Assembly (NCBI GenBank): GCA_022360905.1
Contig: JAKSBX010000147.1
Coordinates: forward strand, 1 to 39,766
Direction of reading: 5' to 3'
Source: Chromatiales bacterium
GTDB taxonomy: Bacteria; Pseudomonadota; Gammaproteobacteria; Chromatiales; Chromatiaceae
DNA length: 39,766 nucleotides
The position numbers were made by a program, and so were the translations under genes. Below the pieces are notes generated by a model. The model did no database searches and was not told where the DNA came from. It worked only from the letters and a program-made list of their open reading frames with translations. Below, one piece after another: positions 11,018 to 17,767 of this stretch; positions within the stretch are counted from its first letter, which is position 1, and each line of letters starts with the position of its first letter.

Positions 11018-11269
11018 ATGCCAAAGGCCATGAAAAAAGTCGTCTCCACAGTTTTCGTGATCGGTGCGCTTTGCTTCAGCATGATGAGCCAGGCGTTGCC
11101 TATCTATAGGGGTCAGGAATTCAATACTCCTGCAGTGGAGGCCACTGAGCGAGGCCAGAAGATCGAACAGTCATTTCGCGTCAGTGTACCTGAGCCGAGC
11201 ACTCTGGCACTGCTTGGGTTGGGCCTGATCTGGGTTGGTGCCAGAAGACTAATTAGTAGAAAAAAATAA
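11018..11269 (+). CDS. Short PEP-CTERM sorting-domain protein
   Basis: 83 residues. It has an N-terminal signal peptide (KKVVSTVFVIGALCFSMMSQA), about 30 residues of hydrophilic linker, then the tripartite PEP-CTERM tail: VPEPSTLALLG, a hydrophobic span (LGLGLIWVGA) and a basic end (RRLISRKK). Such tails direct export and processing by exosortase EpsH/XrtA. The mature product would be only about 35 residues, too short for a folded domain, so it may be a small matrix or regulatory peptide. ATG 11018 and the in-frame ATG 11030 are both possible starts and neither has a well-placed ribosome site. No exosortase or PrsK/R genes are in the window. Confidence 0.88.
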   Translation: MPKAMKKVVSTVFVIGALCFSMMSQALPIYRGQEFNTPAVEATERGQKIEQSFRVSVPEPSTLALLGLGLIWVGARRLISRKK

Positions 11270-12639: not shown

Positions 12640-13003
12640 GATGTTTTTCCTTCTGTTTGAACCGGCAACTGTGGATTTTATGGTGCGAATGGTGCAGTGT
12701 CCCGTAAAGTAATATCCGATCTCCGTAAGACAAAACACATAGCGTCGATTATTCGAGGCTTTGTTTGATCCGTCAACCAAGCGTTGGCAGCGGTGATGCT
12801 TAAAGCCCAGAATGTAGACTTTTTAGAGGCGGTTTGACAGATCTCAACGAACCTTCTTTGAAGATTGAGGATAACCCAGAACTGCAGATTAGTTGAGGTA
12901 TAAGGCTGCCGAGTTGACGATTTATAACGATTCAGTAGAGGGGCTATGCGGTCTGTTTGAAAGAACGGCCCATCAATATGCTCAGTATCGATGGGCCAAT
13001 CAA
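12640..13003. other. Intergenic region upstream of the DUF4398 pair
   Basis: About 360 bases without a convincing gene. A 109-codon minus-strand frame crosses it but has no ribosome site, overlaps the DUF3501 end and has unconvincing composition. The region holds a hairpin at 12967-12997 and presumably the promoter of the DUF4398 pair. Confidence 0.6.
12967..12997 (-). terminator. Hairpin closing the rubrerythrin-DUF3501 operon
   Basis: GGCCCATCAATA (12967-12978) pairs with TATCGATGGGCC (12986-12997), 11 of 12 Watson-Crick pairs plus one wobble, loop seven bases. On the minus strand it follows the DUF3501 stop by a few bases and is trailed by GTTCTTTC, a weak T tract. It is a likely but not strong intrinsic terminator. 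Confidence 0.6.
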
Positions 13004-13588
13004 TCAACTCAGGTCACTGATCAGTGAATTTTTAACTGGGGAAGCCAGCCCATCAATCGTGTAGTTATATTCTGCATGATCGATTCCGGCTGACAGCTTG
13101 GCACCGTTTTTAAGACTCTCGATCATCCCGTCGGTCAATTCGAAACGGATAAAATGGACGGCTGAAGTTTTTTCATCAGTTGTGCGTTCAAGGTCCTCAT
13201 TGGCGATCGGGCGTATCTTTTCATGGCCTTCAACGGCAAACCAGATGGCGTTTTCAATACCAATCAGTTTTGCCAGTGCCTGTTTACGCTCTTCCACATC
13301 GTCATATTCCATCATGAATGTGGCCTTCCAGTTGGTGCCGTCAGGTATGAGGGGATTGTAGACATCCAATTCATCTTGAATGCCCTGGTGTTCAAAGATA
13401 CGTTCGATCCGCAGCATCTCCTGAATCTGATACTGCATCGTCAACTCATCCTCGAAGTAGAGTGCGGCATGCGGACCGATCGCCAGACGACGGCTTTTTT
13501 TGTGGTCGATGACGCGAGTCCTGAACTCCTGGCGAATACGGGAATACTCTTCGAGGCTGTAGAGGTCTTCATGGGAAAGCTGGGTCAT
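13004..13588 (-). CDS. DUF3501 family protein
   Basis: 194 residues with the DUF3501 opening (LSHEDLYSLEEYSRIRQEFR, KKSRRLAIGPHAALYFED) and FATMxYDDVEERK-like centre (ATFMMEYDDVEERKQALAKL). There is no signal peptide, no membrane segment and no obvious metal cluster. AGGAG lies six bases before the ATG. The family is known mostly from its constant company with rubrerythrin and a CCG-domain Fe-S protein, the arrangement seen here, so it is probably an accessory of that electron path. It is the last gene of the operon, 15 bases after the ferritin-like gene. The biochemical role is unknown. Confidence 0.88.
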   Translation of the reverse strand: MTQLSHEDLYSLEEYSRIRQEFRTRVIDHKKSRRLAIGPHAALYFEDELTMQYQIQEMLRIERIFEHQGIQDELDVYNPLIPDGTNWKATFMMEYDDVEERKQALAKLIGIENAIWFAVEGHEKIRPIANEDLERTTDEKTSAVHFIRFELTDGMIESLKNGAKLSAGIDHAEYNYTIDGLASPVKNSLISDLS

Positions 13589-13603: not shown

Positions 13604-13891
13604 TCAATCGTGTGCAATGGTTTTATCCGTAAACAGGTAGTCTTTCAGCTCTCTATCAAAGCTCGGATCCTGCCGTCTTATCCACTCCATAACCATCGCC
13701 GCATGCTCTTTCTCCTCATCCCGGTTGTGGGCGAGAATGGCGCGCAGTTCAGGATTGCTGCAGGCATCAACCCGCTGATTGTACCAATCCACCGCTTCAA
13801 GCTCTTCCATCAGCGAGACAATTGCCCGATGCATGTCTCTGGTTTCATTGCTGAGTTGTTCTAGCGGCTCGTGATAGCCTTCATTTGCCAT
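13604..13891 (-). CDS. EncFtn-like ferritin (encapsulated-ferritin family) without targeting tail
   Basis: 95 residues that closely resemble the encapsulin-associated ferritin of Rhodospirillum rubrum from memory (HEPLEQLSNET, HRAIVSLMEELEAVDWYNQR, LAHNRDEEKEHAAMVMEW). The ferroxidase residues of that family align with E30, E60 and H63. The flanking E29, E32, W36 and Y37 are also kept. Such proteins are two-helix subunits that assemble into a ring and form the di-iron centre between subunits. The protein stops straight after the helical domain (ending FTDKTIAHD), so the C-terminal extension with the encapsulin-docking peptide is missing. No encapsulin shell gene is present nearby. It lies between the Fe-S oxidoreductase and DUF3501 genes. 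It may be a free iron oxidase rather than encapsulin cargo. Confidence 0.88.
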   Translation of the reverse strand: MANEGYHEPLEQLSNETRDMHRAIVSLMEELEAVDWYNQRVDACSNPELRAILAHNRDEEKEHAAMVMEWIRRQDPSFDRELKDYLFTDKTIAHD

Positions 13892-13915: not shown

Positions 13916-15259
13916 CTAAATACCATAGGCCTGGCGCATCAGGCTGATCGGATGTTGTGGTTGTCGGCCATCTTTCAGGCCATTTTCGATGTGGTGACCC
14001 GCCATTGGGCAGTCACTGCCATAACAGTCGGCTTCCGCCTGTTTTACCCGGTTGACCACCGGTTTACCGATTTTCATGGCATGTTTGTGAAATTCGCTCT
14101 TTACAGCATAGGTGCCATCATGGCCGGAGCAGCGTTCGATGGCTGTGACCTGGGTGTCCGGTATGAGGCTTAAAACCTCTTTTGTCTTTGCCCCCACATT
14201 CTGCACCCGCTGATGGCAGGCGGCATGGTAGGCAACTTTGCCCAGGCCCTGTTTGAAGTCTGTTTTCAACAGCTCCGATTTGTGTCTGATCATCAGATAT
14301 TCGAAGATGTCGAAAACCGCATCGGCGACTTTTCTGACTTCAGGGTCATCGGGAAACAGCAGCGGCAGCTCCTGTTTGAACATCAATGCACAGGAAGGCA
14401 CCGGCGCGACGATATCCCAACCCTGATCCACCAGTTTGGCCAGTACTGGGATATTGGCGTCCTTGGCCGCTTCCACCGCGTCCAGATTGCCCAATTCAAG
14501 CTTGGGCATGCCGCAACACTGCTCTTTTTCCGCCAGGGTTACCGGGATGCCGTTGTGTTCGAATACCGCCACCAGGTCCTCACCCACATGGGGTTCGTTG
14601 TAGTTGCCGTAACAGGTGCCGAACAGGGCCACTTTGCCTTTGGTGGTACCTGCAGGGGTACCCTGTGCATCGATGGCCACTTTCTCGGCCAGACGCTTGC
14701 GCAGGGGCTTGCTGTGAAATTCAGGTAGCTTCGCCTCGGGGTGGACGCCCAGTGCATGATCCAGGATTTCACGGAAATTCTTAGCTTTGTTGAATTGATT
14801 GACCACACCGGAGACAACCGGAATACCGGCCAGTTTACCCAGGTTGTCAGTGCTGGTGAGTAGCCGATCGCGTAATTTGACATCGCCTTTTTTGTACTTC
14901 ACCGCTTTTGCCCGCAGCATCAGATGAGGAAAATCGATATTCCACTCGTGAGGCGGCACATAGGGGCATTTGGTCATATAGCAGAGGTCACACAGGTAGC
15001 AGTGATCCACCACCTGCCAGTAATCCTCTTTGGCAACTCCGTCCACCTCCATAGTTTCCGACTCGTCCACCAGATCGAACAGGCTGGGAAAGCTATGACA
15101 GAGACTGACGCAGCGTCGGCATCCATGGCACAGATCAAAGACCCGTTCCAACTCCTCCATTAAGCTCTGTTCGTTGTAATAATCGGGATCTTTCCAGTCG
15201 ATGGGATGCCGGGTCGGGGCTTCCAGGTTACCTTCTCGTTGACCGGTAGGTGCTGCCAT
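13916..15259 (-). CDS. (Fe-S)-binding CCG-domain oxidoreductase associated with rubrerythrin
   Basis: 447 residues. Two ferredoxin-type clusters lie near the N-terminus: C44-C47-C50-C54 and C87-C90-C93-C98. Two CCG-type halves follow: GTCYGNY near 214 with EQCCGMPKLE near 247, and AACHQRVQ near 344 with ERCSGHDGTY near 379. A final DCYGSDCPMAG lies near 411. This resembles GlpC or heterodisulfide reductase HdrD-type electron carriers. The second CCG is altered to CSG, which appears to be a trait of this subgroup. There is no membrane segment. Position between rubrerythrin and the EncFtn-like gene suggests it passes electrons to or from the di-iron proteins. AGGAG precedes the ATG by nine bases. 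Confidence 0.9.
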   Translation of the reverse strand: MAAPTGQREGNLEAPTRHPIDWKDPDYYNEQSLMEELERVFDLCHGCRRCVSLCHSFPSLFDLVDESETMEVDGVAKEDYWQVVDHCYLCDLCYMTKCPYVPPHEWNIDFPHLMLRAKAVKYKKGDVKLRDRLLTSTDNLGKLAGIPVVSGVVNQFNKAKNFREILDHALGVHPEAKLPEFHSKPLRKRLAEKVAIDAQGTPAGTTKGKVALFGTCYGNYNEPHVGEDLVAVFEHNGIPVTLAEKEQCCGMPKLELGNLDAVEAAKDANIPVLAKLVDQGWDIVAPVPSCALMFKQELPLLFPDDPEVRKVADAVFDIFEYLMIRHKSELLKTDFKQGLGKVAYHAACHQRVQNVGAKTKEVLSLIPDTQVTAIERCSGHDGTYAVKSEFHKHAMKIGKPVVNRVKQAEADCYGSDCPMAGHHIENGLKDGRQPQHPISLMRQAYGI

Positions 15260-15340: not shown

Positions 15341-15757
15341 TCAGTCCATCTCGTCCAGTGCTTTCTGGTAACGGTTGGCATGAGAACGTTCGGCCTTAGC
15401 CAGGGTTTCGAACCAGTCAGCGACTTCATCGAAACCCTCATCACGGGCGGTTTTAGCCATGCCTGGATACATGTCAGTGTATTCATGGGTTTCACCGGCA
15501 ACTGCGGCCTTCAGGTTGTCGCCCGTAGGGCCGATGGGCAGGCCGGTAGCTGGATCGCCACACTGCTCCAGATACTCAAGATGACCATGGGCATGACCGG
15601 TTTCACCTTCTGCGGTGGAACGAAACAGGGCTGCGACATCGTTGTAACCTTCTACATCGGCTTTGGCGGCGAAGTAGAGGTAGCGACGATTGGCTTGGGA
15701 TTCTCCGGCAAAAGCGTCTTTCAGGTTTTGCTCTGTATTACTACCTTTGAGTTCCAT
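15341..15757 (-). CDS. Rubrerythrin-family di-iron protein (no rubredoxin domain)
   Basis: 138 residues from ATG 15757, preceded by GGAGAACCAGAT. A longer frame from 15796 adds a His-rich leader with no support. The ferritin-like domain shows the paired metal ligands: GESQANRRY near residue 19, [11 protein letters not shown] (ExxH) near 50, AGETHEY near 85 and AERSHANRY (ExxH) near 122. The usual C-terminal rubredoxin domain is absent, so an external electron donor is needed, for which the Fe-S oxidoreductase downstream is the obvious candidate. Rubrerythrins reduce hydrogen peroxide. It is the first gene of a four-gene minus-strand operon with a regulatory palindrome just upstream. Confidence 0.93.
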
Positions 15758-15824
15758 ATCTGGTTCTCCGAAATGATGGTTATTGTGGAAATGCACGTTG
15801 AGCCCGACGGCTCTTCGCTGATGC

Positions 15825-15839
15825 TTAGAATAGTTCTAA
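15825..15839. promoter_or_regulatory. ICE/PerR-like operator at the rubrerythrin promoter
   Basis: A perfect interrupted palindrome TTAGAA-TAG-TTCTAA. It lies just downstream of the predicted rubrerythrin -10 element, in the divergent region between rubrerythrin and the Fur-family regulator. It matches, as I recall it, the iron control element bound by Irr (TTAGAA-N3-TTCTAA) and is similar to the 7-1-7 PerR box. It is the expected site for the adjacent regulator. Confidence 0.7.
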
Positions 15840-16026: not shown

Positions 16027-16461
16027 ATGGAATTGAACGAGCAACAACAGCATTCGCAAAAGCGGAATGTCGCGCAAATGATGATCGCTCATGGGGTCAA
16101 TCTGACCAAACAGCGACGCATCATTGCGGATGTATTGTTCGAGCGTAATCAGCACGTCACCGCAGACCAGCTCTTCGATTTGGTCAGGCAGACTGGTAGC
16201 CGGGTATCGAAAGCGACGGTCTACAATACCCTTGGGTTGTTCGCCAAGAAAGGATTGGTGAGGGAGATTTTTATCGACGCCTCCCGTACCTTCTACGATT
16301 CAAACAACAGCCACCATCACCATTTCTACAATGTGGATACGGGTGACCTGATCGATATCAAAGCCCGTTTGGCGCCCCATTTCATTGAACAGGATCTACC
16401 GGAGGGCACATCCATGGATGTTGTCGATCTAGTGGTGCGGGTAAAAAACATAAAGCCCTGA
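16027..16461 (+). CDS. Irr/PerR-like Fur-family regulator lacking cysteines
   Basis: 144 residues of the Fur superfamily. The winged-helix domain covers about residues 15-85 (LTKQRRIIADVLF, HVTADQLFDLV, SKATVYNTLGLFAKKGLV). The dimerisation domain contains FYDSNNSHHHHFYNVDTGDL and IDIKARL. There is no cysteine at all, so the structural zinc site CxxC of Fur, Zur and most PerR proteins is missing. The four-histidine run is like the haem-binding histidine motif of Irr in rhizobia. It is divergent from the rubrerythrin operon and upstream of the peroxidase, both with a matching palindrome. Response to haem, iron or peroxide is plausible; which one cannot be decided here. There is no ribosome site before the ATG. 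Confidence 0.88.
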   Translation: MELNEQQQHSQKRNVAQMMIAHGVNLTKQRRIIADVLFERNQHVTADQLFDLVRQTGSRVSKATVYNTLGLFAKKGLVREIFIDASRTFYDSNNSHHHHFYNVDTGDLIDIKARLAPHFIEQDLPEGTSMDVVDLVVRVKNIKP

Positions 16462-16541: not shown

Positions 16542-16570
16542 TTGACATAAGTCATTGTTTTAAATTTAGA
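16542..16570 (+). promoter_or_regulatory. Candidate promoter of the cytochrome c peroxidase gene
   Basis: A perfect -35 TTGACA (16542-16547) is followed 17 bases later by TTTAGA (16565-16570), a weak -10. The -10 overlaps the palindrome at 16566-16580. The resulting leader would be about 200 bases and contains a small inverted repeat (GGTTCCAG 16743-16750 / CTAGAACC 16755-16762). Confidence 0.5.
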
Positions 16571-16580
16571 CTAATTCTAA
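16566..16580. promoter_or_regulatory. Second ICE/PerR-like operator, at the peroxidase promoter
   Basis: TTAGAC-TAA-TTCTAA, one base from the perfect palindrome upstream of rubrerythrin. It overlaps the predicted -10 of the peroxidase gene, a good place for repression by the Irr-like regulator encoded just upstream. Confidence 0.6.
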
Positions 16581-16777: not shown

Positions 16778-17767
16778 ATGAACTTTAAAATTTCTATGAT
16801 CGCAACAGTGCTGCTAGGTATTTCAAGCCAGGCTATGGCAGCGGAAGAGCCCATCAAACCGATTAAACCTGTTCAGAATATCAATCTGGGGCAGGTTGAG
16901 TTAGGCAAGAAACTCTATTTTGATCCCCGTCTTTCCAAGTCCGGTTTCATTTCGTGTAACTCTTGCCACAACCTGAGCATGGGGGGTACCGATAACCTCA
17001 AGACCTCGATCGGCCATAATTGGCAGCAGGGCCCGATCAATGCACCGACGGTTCTCAATTCAAGTCTCAACCTGGCCCAGTTCTGGGACGGCCGGGCAGC
17101 GGACCTGAAGGCTCAAGCCGGTGGTCCGATCGCCAATCCGGGCGAGATGGCGGCGACTCACACCTTGGCGGTTGAGGTACTGGAATCGATCCCCCAATAT
17201 GTCATGGAGTTCAAGAAGGTCTTTGGTGTGGATAAAATCACCATCGATGAGGTGACCCAGGCGATCGCTGAGTTTGAGAAGACTCTGGTGACCCCCAACT
17301 CGGATTTTGATAAGTGGTTACTGGGTGACAAAGCGGCCCTGAACGAGGAGGAGCTGAAGGGTTATAAGCTGTTCAAAGAGAGTGGCTGTACGGCCTGTCA
17401 TAACGGTGAAGCGGTCGGTGGTAACTCCTTTCAGAAGATGGGTCTGGTCGAGGCCTATAAGACCGACAGCAAGGCTGAGGGCCTGAGCGCGGTGACCGGT
17501 AAGGATGCGGATCGCTTCAAGTTCAAAGTGCCTACCCTGAGAAATGTGGAGATGACCTATCCCTACTTCCATGACGGTGAAGCTCAAACCCTGACTGAGG
17601 CTGTCGATGTGATGGGCAGGCTGCAGCTGGGACGTAAATTTACGGATGCCGAAAATGGCCAGATTGTGGCCTTTCTGAAGACCCTGACCGGGGATCAGCC
17701 ATCCTTCCTGATGCCGATTCTGCCGCCATCAACCGACAACACACCGGCACCGAAGCCTTTTGAATAA
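16778..17767 (+). CDS. Di-haem cytochrome c peroxidase
   Basis: 329 residues with a Sec signal peptide cleaved after about residue 21 (SQAMA|AE). Two haem c motifs are present: C60-NS-C63-H64 and C204-TA-C207-H208, spaced as in bacterial CCP. The conserved NAPTVLN, FWDGRA, GGPIANPGEM and VPTLRNVEMTYPYFHDG segments are there. It reduces periplasmic hydrogen peroxide using a c-type cytochrome. Length is typical for the short CCP/MauG-like class without an extra haem domain. The start has AGG eight bases upstream. It is downstream of the Irr-like regulator on its own promoter. The C-terminus has a proline-rich tail. Confidence 0.95.
   Translation: MNFKISMIATVLLGISSQAMAAEEPIKPIKPVQNINLGQVELGKKLYFDPRLSKSGFISCNSCHNLSMGGTDNLKTSIGHNWQQGPINAPTVLNSSLNLAQFWDGRAADLKAQAGGPIANPGEMAATHTLAVEVLESIPQYVMEFKKVFGVDKITIDEVTQAIAEFEKTLVTPNSDFDKWLLGDKAALNEEELKGYKLFKESGCTACHNGEAVGGNSFQKMGLVEAYKTDSKAEGLSAVTGKDADRFKFKVPTLRNVEMTYPYFHDGEAQTLTEAVDVMGRLQLGRKFTDAENGQIVAFLKTLTGDQPSFLMPILPPSTDNTPAPKPFE

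Follow-up and report, generated by a model that had tools for sequence, protein, structure and literature searches.

An EncFtn-like ferritin gene without a detected encapsulin partner in a probable rubrerythrin operon of a Chromatiales bacterium

What does an EncFtn-like ferritin do when its gene lies among rubrerythrin genes, and is an encapsulin shell involved? This question is raised by a short protein encoded in a stretch of 39,766 nucleotides from a Chromatiales bacterium (contig JAKSBX010000147.1), hereafter called the window, whose relevant features are collected in Table 1. Profile searches assigned the protein to the EncFtn-like family, with Pfam PF22277 (EncFtn-like) matching at E 4e-45 over positions 2-85 of 85 and NCBIfam TIGR04535 scoring 138.2 bits for a cut-off of 125.

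We aligned the protein with the encapsulated EncFtn of Rhodospirillum rubrum (Rru_A0973). Its E30, E60, H63 and Y37 correspond to the R. rubrum ferroxidase residues E32, E62, H65 and Y39, and its W36 to W38 (a number taken from the alignment), in agreement with the initial annotation of the locus, which had reported this set of residues. The proposed entry-site (E29, E32) and exit-site (H55, E59, E62) residues are retained as well, and the ferroxidase, entry and exit residues are all common to the two proteins. The window protein is likely to have ferroxidase activity. An AlphaFold model (pLDDT 85.9, with 52 for the last block) predicts helices at positions 15-43, 47-74 and 78-87, and its top match in the PDB is 3k6c, with a TM score of 0.73 and ~78% identity. 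The related structures 3k6c and 5n5f contain 10 chains each, and by analogy the window protein probably forms a decameric ring. The fold is also common to the encapsulated EncFtn proteins of R. rubrum and Haliangium ochraceum. Targeting peptide and shell, which these proteins have (PMC11202242), are both lacking in the window protein.

Proteins of this kind have been described before. He et al. (2016; PMC5012862) set a 'Non-EncFtn' group without an encapsulin sequence beside EncFtn, and in a 2024 review (PMC11202242) the tailless forms go by the name s-FLP, 3K6C is given as their structure, and the tail LFTD(E/N)KPIAHE appears as a putative targeting peptide that is uncharacterised. The window protein corresponds to the s-FLP short form without a recognised targeting peptide, its C-terminal end, LFTDKTIAHD, fits the LFTD(E/N)KPIAHE type, and it belongs to this known class. 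The premise of the initial annotation that known EncFtn proteins carry a docking peptide thus holds for the encapsulated forms but is incomplete, because a tailless class with a solved structure was already in print. The protein in that structure, NE0167 of Nitrosomonas europaea, has in common with the window protein a length of 95 residues, the lack of a targeting peptide, the type of tail and the fold. It differs in having L at the position of W36, and it is likened to the window protein at the protein level only, whereas the window gene lies between those of RFO (an Fe-S oxidoreductase) and DUF3501. No docking peptide follows the third helix of the window protein. Nonetheless, the protein goes on past the helical domain, at which it had been stated to end, with an eight-residue tail that is conserved in close relatives.

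Table 1. Positions in the window of the EncFtn-like gene and of the surrounding features.
Feature	Coordinates	Strand	Basis or remark
EncFtn-like gene (s-FLP class), 95 residues, without docking peptide	13604..13891	-	Open reading frame, ATG start, profile matches
Codons of the C-terminal tail TDKTIAHD and stop	13604..13630	-	Where encapsulated forms have a linker and docking peptide
Rubrerythrin, aerobic type, without detected rubredoxin domain, first gene of the operon	15341..15796	-	PF02915
CCG-domain Fe-S oxidoreductase (RFO), GlpC-like	13916..15259	-	Profile matches
DUF3501 protein (solved relative 3fjv), encoded at the end of the operon	13004..13588	-	Profile match
Terminator-like hairpin of 13 pairs directly after DUF3501	12966..12998	-	Hairpin scan
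TTAGAATAGTTCTAA, a perfect palindrome before the rubrerythrin operon	15825..15839		Motif scan
Second copy of the palindrome, TTAGACTAATTCTAA, with one mismatch, before the cytochrome c peroxidase gene	16566..16580		Motif scan
Fur-superfamily regulator, divergent from the operon; best NCBIfam matches are Irr	16027..16461	+	Matches under cut-offs
Di-haem cytochrome c peroxidase/MauG family protein, beside the second palindrome	16778..17767	+	Profile matches

The genes on the minus strand follow one another in the order rubrerythrin, RFO, EncFtn and DUF3501, with gaps of 81, 24 and 15 bases, and we consider it very probable that they form an operon. The rubrerythrin probably starts at the internal ATG of MELKGS. 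The hairpin after DUF3501 is one of four terminator-like sites in the whole region, for 4.5 in shuffled sequences. Elsewhere in the window, a small protein encoded at 11018-11269 on the plus strand has a C-terminal end with what we take to be a PEP-CTERM-like sorting-signal motif. Rubrerythrin, RFO and DUF3501 make up a published aerobic-type cluster (Cardenas 2016; PMC5114695), in which all three genes lie on one strand with tight spacing, as they do here. The window differs in that its cluster includes an EncFtn-like gene: passages of PMC5114695 on RBR-RFO-DUF3501 mention none, and its main text yields no hit for 'encapsul'; one of its figures marks some genes as hypothetical. Similarly, a literature search covering listings and running-text passages of PMC5114695, PMC11202242 and PMC5012862 returned no statement linking EncFtn to the rubrerythrin cluster.

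We next consider the shell. No classical shell gene (PF04454) was found in the organism's own genome (92.95% complete), and the same search matched in 3 of 14 control genomes. The SrpI-like family PF19307 gave no match there either; this negative is weak, because no control genome matched that family. We also scanned genome contigs for relatives of the window protein and retained the best 80 of at least 529 stretches encoding one. These 80 proteins are 94-101 residues long with similar tails, and PF04454 is absent from 76 of their genomes. Each of the other four genomes has a separate EncFtn-like gene beside the shell gene; three of these are tailed, and one (L310) has an internal stop. A classical shell that had escaped detection was therefore rejected after the PF04454 searches of the own and the relatives' genomes, and an SrpI-type shell was rejected weakly, from the own genome and with no control match. 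Thus, the genome-wide search left the initial claim of neither docking peptide nor shell gene standing, the C-terminal end had not been misread in this respect, and the window protein is almost certainly shell-free.

The class surveys point in the same direction. They covered evenly drawn genomes, 321 from the window's own class (gamma) and 337 from that of genome G139, which we take to be alpha from the likeness of its protein to the R. rubrum form. EncFtn-like matches at E 0.001 occurred in 90/321 gamma and 62/337 alpha genomes, and 86 and 55 of these genomes, respectively, had matches above the Pfam cut-off; PF04454 matched in 17/321 and 11/337. We retained 141 proteins (88 gamma, 53 alpha) with a match across most of the domain and called shell-linked those whose gene lies no more than 170 bases from a shell gene or is in the same frame with one. 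This applies to 29 proteins, 28 of which have a docking-type peptide, the other (L251) being a fusion with part of a shell; the list of docking motifs was drawn up after inspection of the tails, and one protein (L247) was counted on a weak 'VGK'. None of the 112 unlinked proteins has a docking peptide, including one of 122 residues with a longer tail (L218). The genomes of 108 of them lack PF04454, and four have a shell gene elsewhere; these four (G260, G436, G475 and G486) contain a second, shell-linked EncFtn-like copy. E29, E30, Y37, H55, E59, E60, E62 and H63 are present in all 112 shell-free proteins, and E32 in 111 of them.

An earlier draw of 200 genomes across the phylum gave EncFtn-like matches above the cut-off in 14 and shells above the cut-off in three. 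In two of these three shell genomes (G051 and G071), a divergent EncFtn-like protein is encoded on another contig or ~2 Mb from the shell gene. A divergent EncFtn-like protein of 104 residues, ~41% identical and without a docking peptide, was observed at three loci (L012, L013 and L014), and two of the three genomes have a non-adjacent shell gene. The L251 protein (G436:C227), which belongs to the window's class, has its EncFtn domain in frame with the later part of a shell protein (profile positions 116-252). A published survey places all EncFtn-shell fusions in Archaea, and the L251 fusion could reflect a deletion or a fault in the assembly. Finally, a 3.5-kb contig titled as a cyanobacterial MAG (L094) codes for an EncFtn protein 82% identical to that of the window and is possibly a contamination.

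The tail is well kept among the best 80 of the at least 529 relatives, with K90 in 74, I92 in 75, A93 in 72 and H94 in 78 of the 80. Both histidine codons are used for H94 (CAC 54, CAT 24), and therefore the protein letters of the tail are conserved beyond the DNA. Across the 141 proteins, the tail is more variable, and H94 is found in 60/112 shell-free proteins. A histidine occurs within the first nine tail residues in 86/112 shell-free as opposed to 1/29 shell-linked proteins, and among the last six residues in 97/112 as opposed to 0/29, both counts coming from related rows. The tree yields too few independent contrasts for a test, with two independent pairs on the well-supported branches and six on all branches; the sign test was not significant, and the idea that a histidine in the tail correlates independently with loss of the shell was rejected. 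C44 is present in 107/112 shell-free and 9/29 shell-linked proteins; this is suggestive of a sequence mark of the shell-free class, albeit not an exclusive one. According to He et al. (PMC5012862), the C-terminal region of EncFtn exits the ring at its outer circumference, and for this reason the tail could reach a partner.

A tree of 143 rows and 87 columns places the window protein with EncFtn, and a placement outside that family was not obtained. On this unrooted tree, the shell label changes six times, for a mean of 27.5 when labels are shuffled, but the tree is poorly supported, and its well-supported branches force only two changes; it speaks neither for nor against the ancestral form suggested in the initial annotation. 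One set of 71 rows, which are shell-free without exception, includes both the window protein and 3K6C (SH-aLRT 82, from few columns). Membership of the rubrerythrin operon changes 17 times among the 70 gamma shell-free rows, for a shuffled mean of 18.1. Operon membership is thus scattered on a weak tree, which shows neither one origin nor many.

The initial annotation had placed the gene in a rubrerythrin operon, and this linkage extends beyond the window's genome and recurs in other families. RFO, DUF3501 or rubrerythrin was matched in the neighbourhood of 21 of the 70 shell-free genes from gamma and of none of the 18 shell-linked ones from this class (Fisher p 0.005, uncorrected for kinship). 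The flanks comprised 1.5 kb or ~0.6 kb, and these counts are therefore lower bounds. No rubrerythrin cluster was detected near the 53 alpha EncFtn-like genes within the available flanks. The phylum draw gave one further operon-linked case (L006). With the wider class sample, we rejected the idea that the operon is a local oddity.

Longer flanks of the 20 clusters other than that of the window showed, on the same strand, rubrerythrin in 18, RFO in 17, DUF3501 in 19 and all three in 16, that is 17/21 with the window counted. Two incomplete clusters (L133/L318 and L232/L330) are cut by the contig start; L198/L321 has only a rubrerythrin (52% identical), and L210/L323 has no RFO in view. The order RFO-EncFtn-DUF3501 is found in 16/21 clusters. 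Elsewhere, the EncFtn gene follows DUF3501 (L131 and L133, and at a distance of ~0.9 kb in L110) or rubrerythrin (L198), or it lies between rubrerythrin and DUF3501 (L210). In three of the four genomes that have both forms (G260, G436 and G486), the tailless copy is in the cluster and the shell-linked copy elsewhere. An AhpC-type peroxiredoxin is encoded near the shell-free EncFtn gene in three related genomes that share one family code (L110, L112 and L120), and L216 falls in the same reading-frame cluster as these neighbours.

Among the best 80 of the at least 529 relatives, the operon is present at only four loci (L020, L028, L032 and L061), and this closer sample therefore under-represents it. 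No general conserved neighbour was found at these 80 loci, small groups of which share neighbours. Conversely, we searched the relatives' genomes for DUF3501, which was present in 42 of 56, and viewed 30 loci. In the window's own genus (22 genomes, 20 viewed loci), a full-length EncFtn gene lies between RFO and DUF3501 in 13/20. At the other seven loci, it is lost or broken while RFO and DUF3501 are retained: remnants are visible in L279, L282, L295 and L303, the gene is broken near its start in L287, and L292 and L297 have just a 53-base gap in its place. A search of six of these seven genomes gave no EncFtn-like match above the cut-off. Outside the genus, EncFtn is present at six and absent from four of the 10 viewed loci. 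The losses show that EncFtn is not essential to the operon in its own genus, and the gene is an accessory of the rubrerythrin operon.

The region upstream of the operon contains a palindrome of the type TTAGAANNNTTCTAA, of which the window has two copies with no more than one mismatch, for 0.02 sites expected. The regulator encoded between the two sites scores 110.6 bits (cut-off 150) and 109.7 bits (cut-off 170) with the NCBIfam Irr models. At the two operon loci L020 and L028, sites with one or two mismatches are present at both places, with one more elsewhere in L020; none with up to two mismatches was found in the operon loci L032 and L061. The 20 other clusters (117,341 bases, without a shuffled control) contain five sites with at most one mismatch (L312, L317, L322, L327 and L329), all of them no more than ~85 bases upstream of rubrerythrin, and no such site was found in the other 15. 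An association of the palindrome with EncFtn genes as such was rejected: upstream of these genes, the best 80 of the at least 529 relatives' loci have two sites with up to two mismatches, for a shuffled mean of 1.05, and one of the two (L067) is spurious, arising from a gene located at the end of a contig.

In Rhodobacter, a gel-shift-confirmed Irr site reads TTAGAAATATTCTAGA (PMC6956336), and Irr binds the promoters of mbfA and ccpA (PMC3413700). The window resembles this alphaproteobacterial regulon in its near-identical palindrome, its Irr-like regulator and the kinds of genes concerned, i.e. rubrerythrin-like and cytochrome c peroxidase genes; it differs from it in that the regulator scores under the Irr cut-offs. 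By analogy, this resemblance supports a shared response to iron and peroxide.

Taken as a whole, we slightly favour the explanation that the window protein is a shell-free EncFtn ferroxidase ring that works together with rubrerythrin to counter iron and peroxide. A decameric ring would oxidise Fe(II) at its di-iron sites in the open cytoplasm and thereby take it away, using O2 or peroxide, and rubrerythrin would take away peroxide with electrons from RFO, so that the two would jointly limit Fenton chemistry. The EncFtn gene is probably co-transcribed with those of the aerobic-type rubrerythrin, RFO and DUF3501, and the operon may be controlled by the Irr/PerR-like regulator, which also faces the cytochrome c peroxidase gene. 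The ferric iron would go to a soluble acceptor rather than to a classical shell, perhaps via the short conserved tail on the outer rim. The suggestion of the initial annotation that the protein passes iron to another partner is a possible one. A functional coupling of EncFtn to rubrerythrin, taken by itself, is plausible but falls just short of probable in our estimate.

Other roles in the operon can be envisaged. Instead of detoxifying iron as a ferroxidase, the ring might serve as a donor or chaperone by which iron is loaded into the di-iron site of rubrerythrin or into the Fe-S oxidoreductase. We deem this unlikely: the gene is located with those of two iron enzymes, its place differing among genomes (behind rubrerythrin or DUF3501, or between RFO and DUF3501), and the distribution of histidine in the first nine tail residues also speaks for such a role, but 76 of the best 80 of the at least 529 relatives have the gene outside a rubrerythrin operon, and rubrerythrin-type operons without it exist. 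Slightly less likely still is a protein whose di-iron site serves to sense peroxide, NO or O2 or to react with them, with iron turnover as a secondary matter. It would suit the peroxide-type neighbourhood, the Irr/PerR-like regulator and the AhpC-type neighbour of a few other loci; it accounts less well for the proposed iron entry and exit residues, which are kept as in the encapsulated ferroxidases.

The remaining two explanations retain a link to the shell, and we regard both as very improbable. The tail LFTD(E/N)KPIAHE could be an unrecognised targeting peptide, the protein still being encapsulated in a classical or another HK97-type shell. The 2024 review does list it as a putative, uncharacterised targeting peptide (PMC11202242), it is conserved in the best 80 of the at least 529 relatives, and shell families other than PF04454 were searched in the own genome only, with no control matched. 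Against this, PF04454 is missing from the own genome, from the genomes of 108 of the 112 shell-free cases and from 76 of those of the best 80 of the at least 529 relatives, and the shells that these genomes do encode adjoin an EncFtn-like gene of their own, tailed or fused except for the one with an internal stop. Marginally less credible is a decaying, truncated relic of an encapsulated cargo that has lost shell and tag. The broken or deleted copies in 7/20 same-genus operons are what one would cite for it; however, conservation is strong, with 31 invariant columns across 11 EncFtn-like proteins of several families and E30, Y37, E60 and H63 in all of the best 80 of the at least 529 relatives, both synonymous codons being used, and shell-free proteins make up most of the sample.

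The shell-free class has consequences for how the family is viewed. Because 112/141 proteins of the two classes have neither a linked shell nor a tag, the usual encapsulated account fits a minority of the sample, and the family name 'encapsulin-associated' (TIGR04535) is misleading for the window protein. The rubrerythrin cluster names candidate partners, and the iron destination of an uncaged relative thereby becomes testable. More tentatively, and with a good deal of doubt, one may propose that shell-free EncFtn prevails in Pseudomonadota as a separate iron system, in which a short, often histidine-bearing tail would replace the docking peptide and pass on ferric iron, or the whole ring, to a partner; in the operon, this partner would be RFO, DUF3501 or rubrerythrin. 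If this is true, it would amount to a ferroxidase-peroxidase assembly without a cage.
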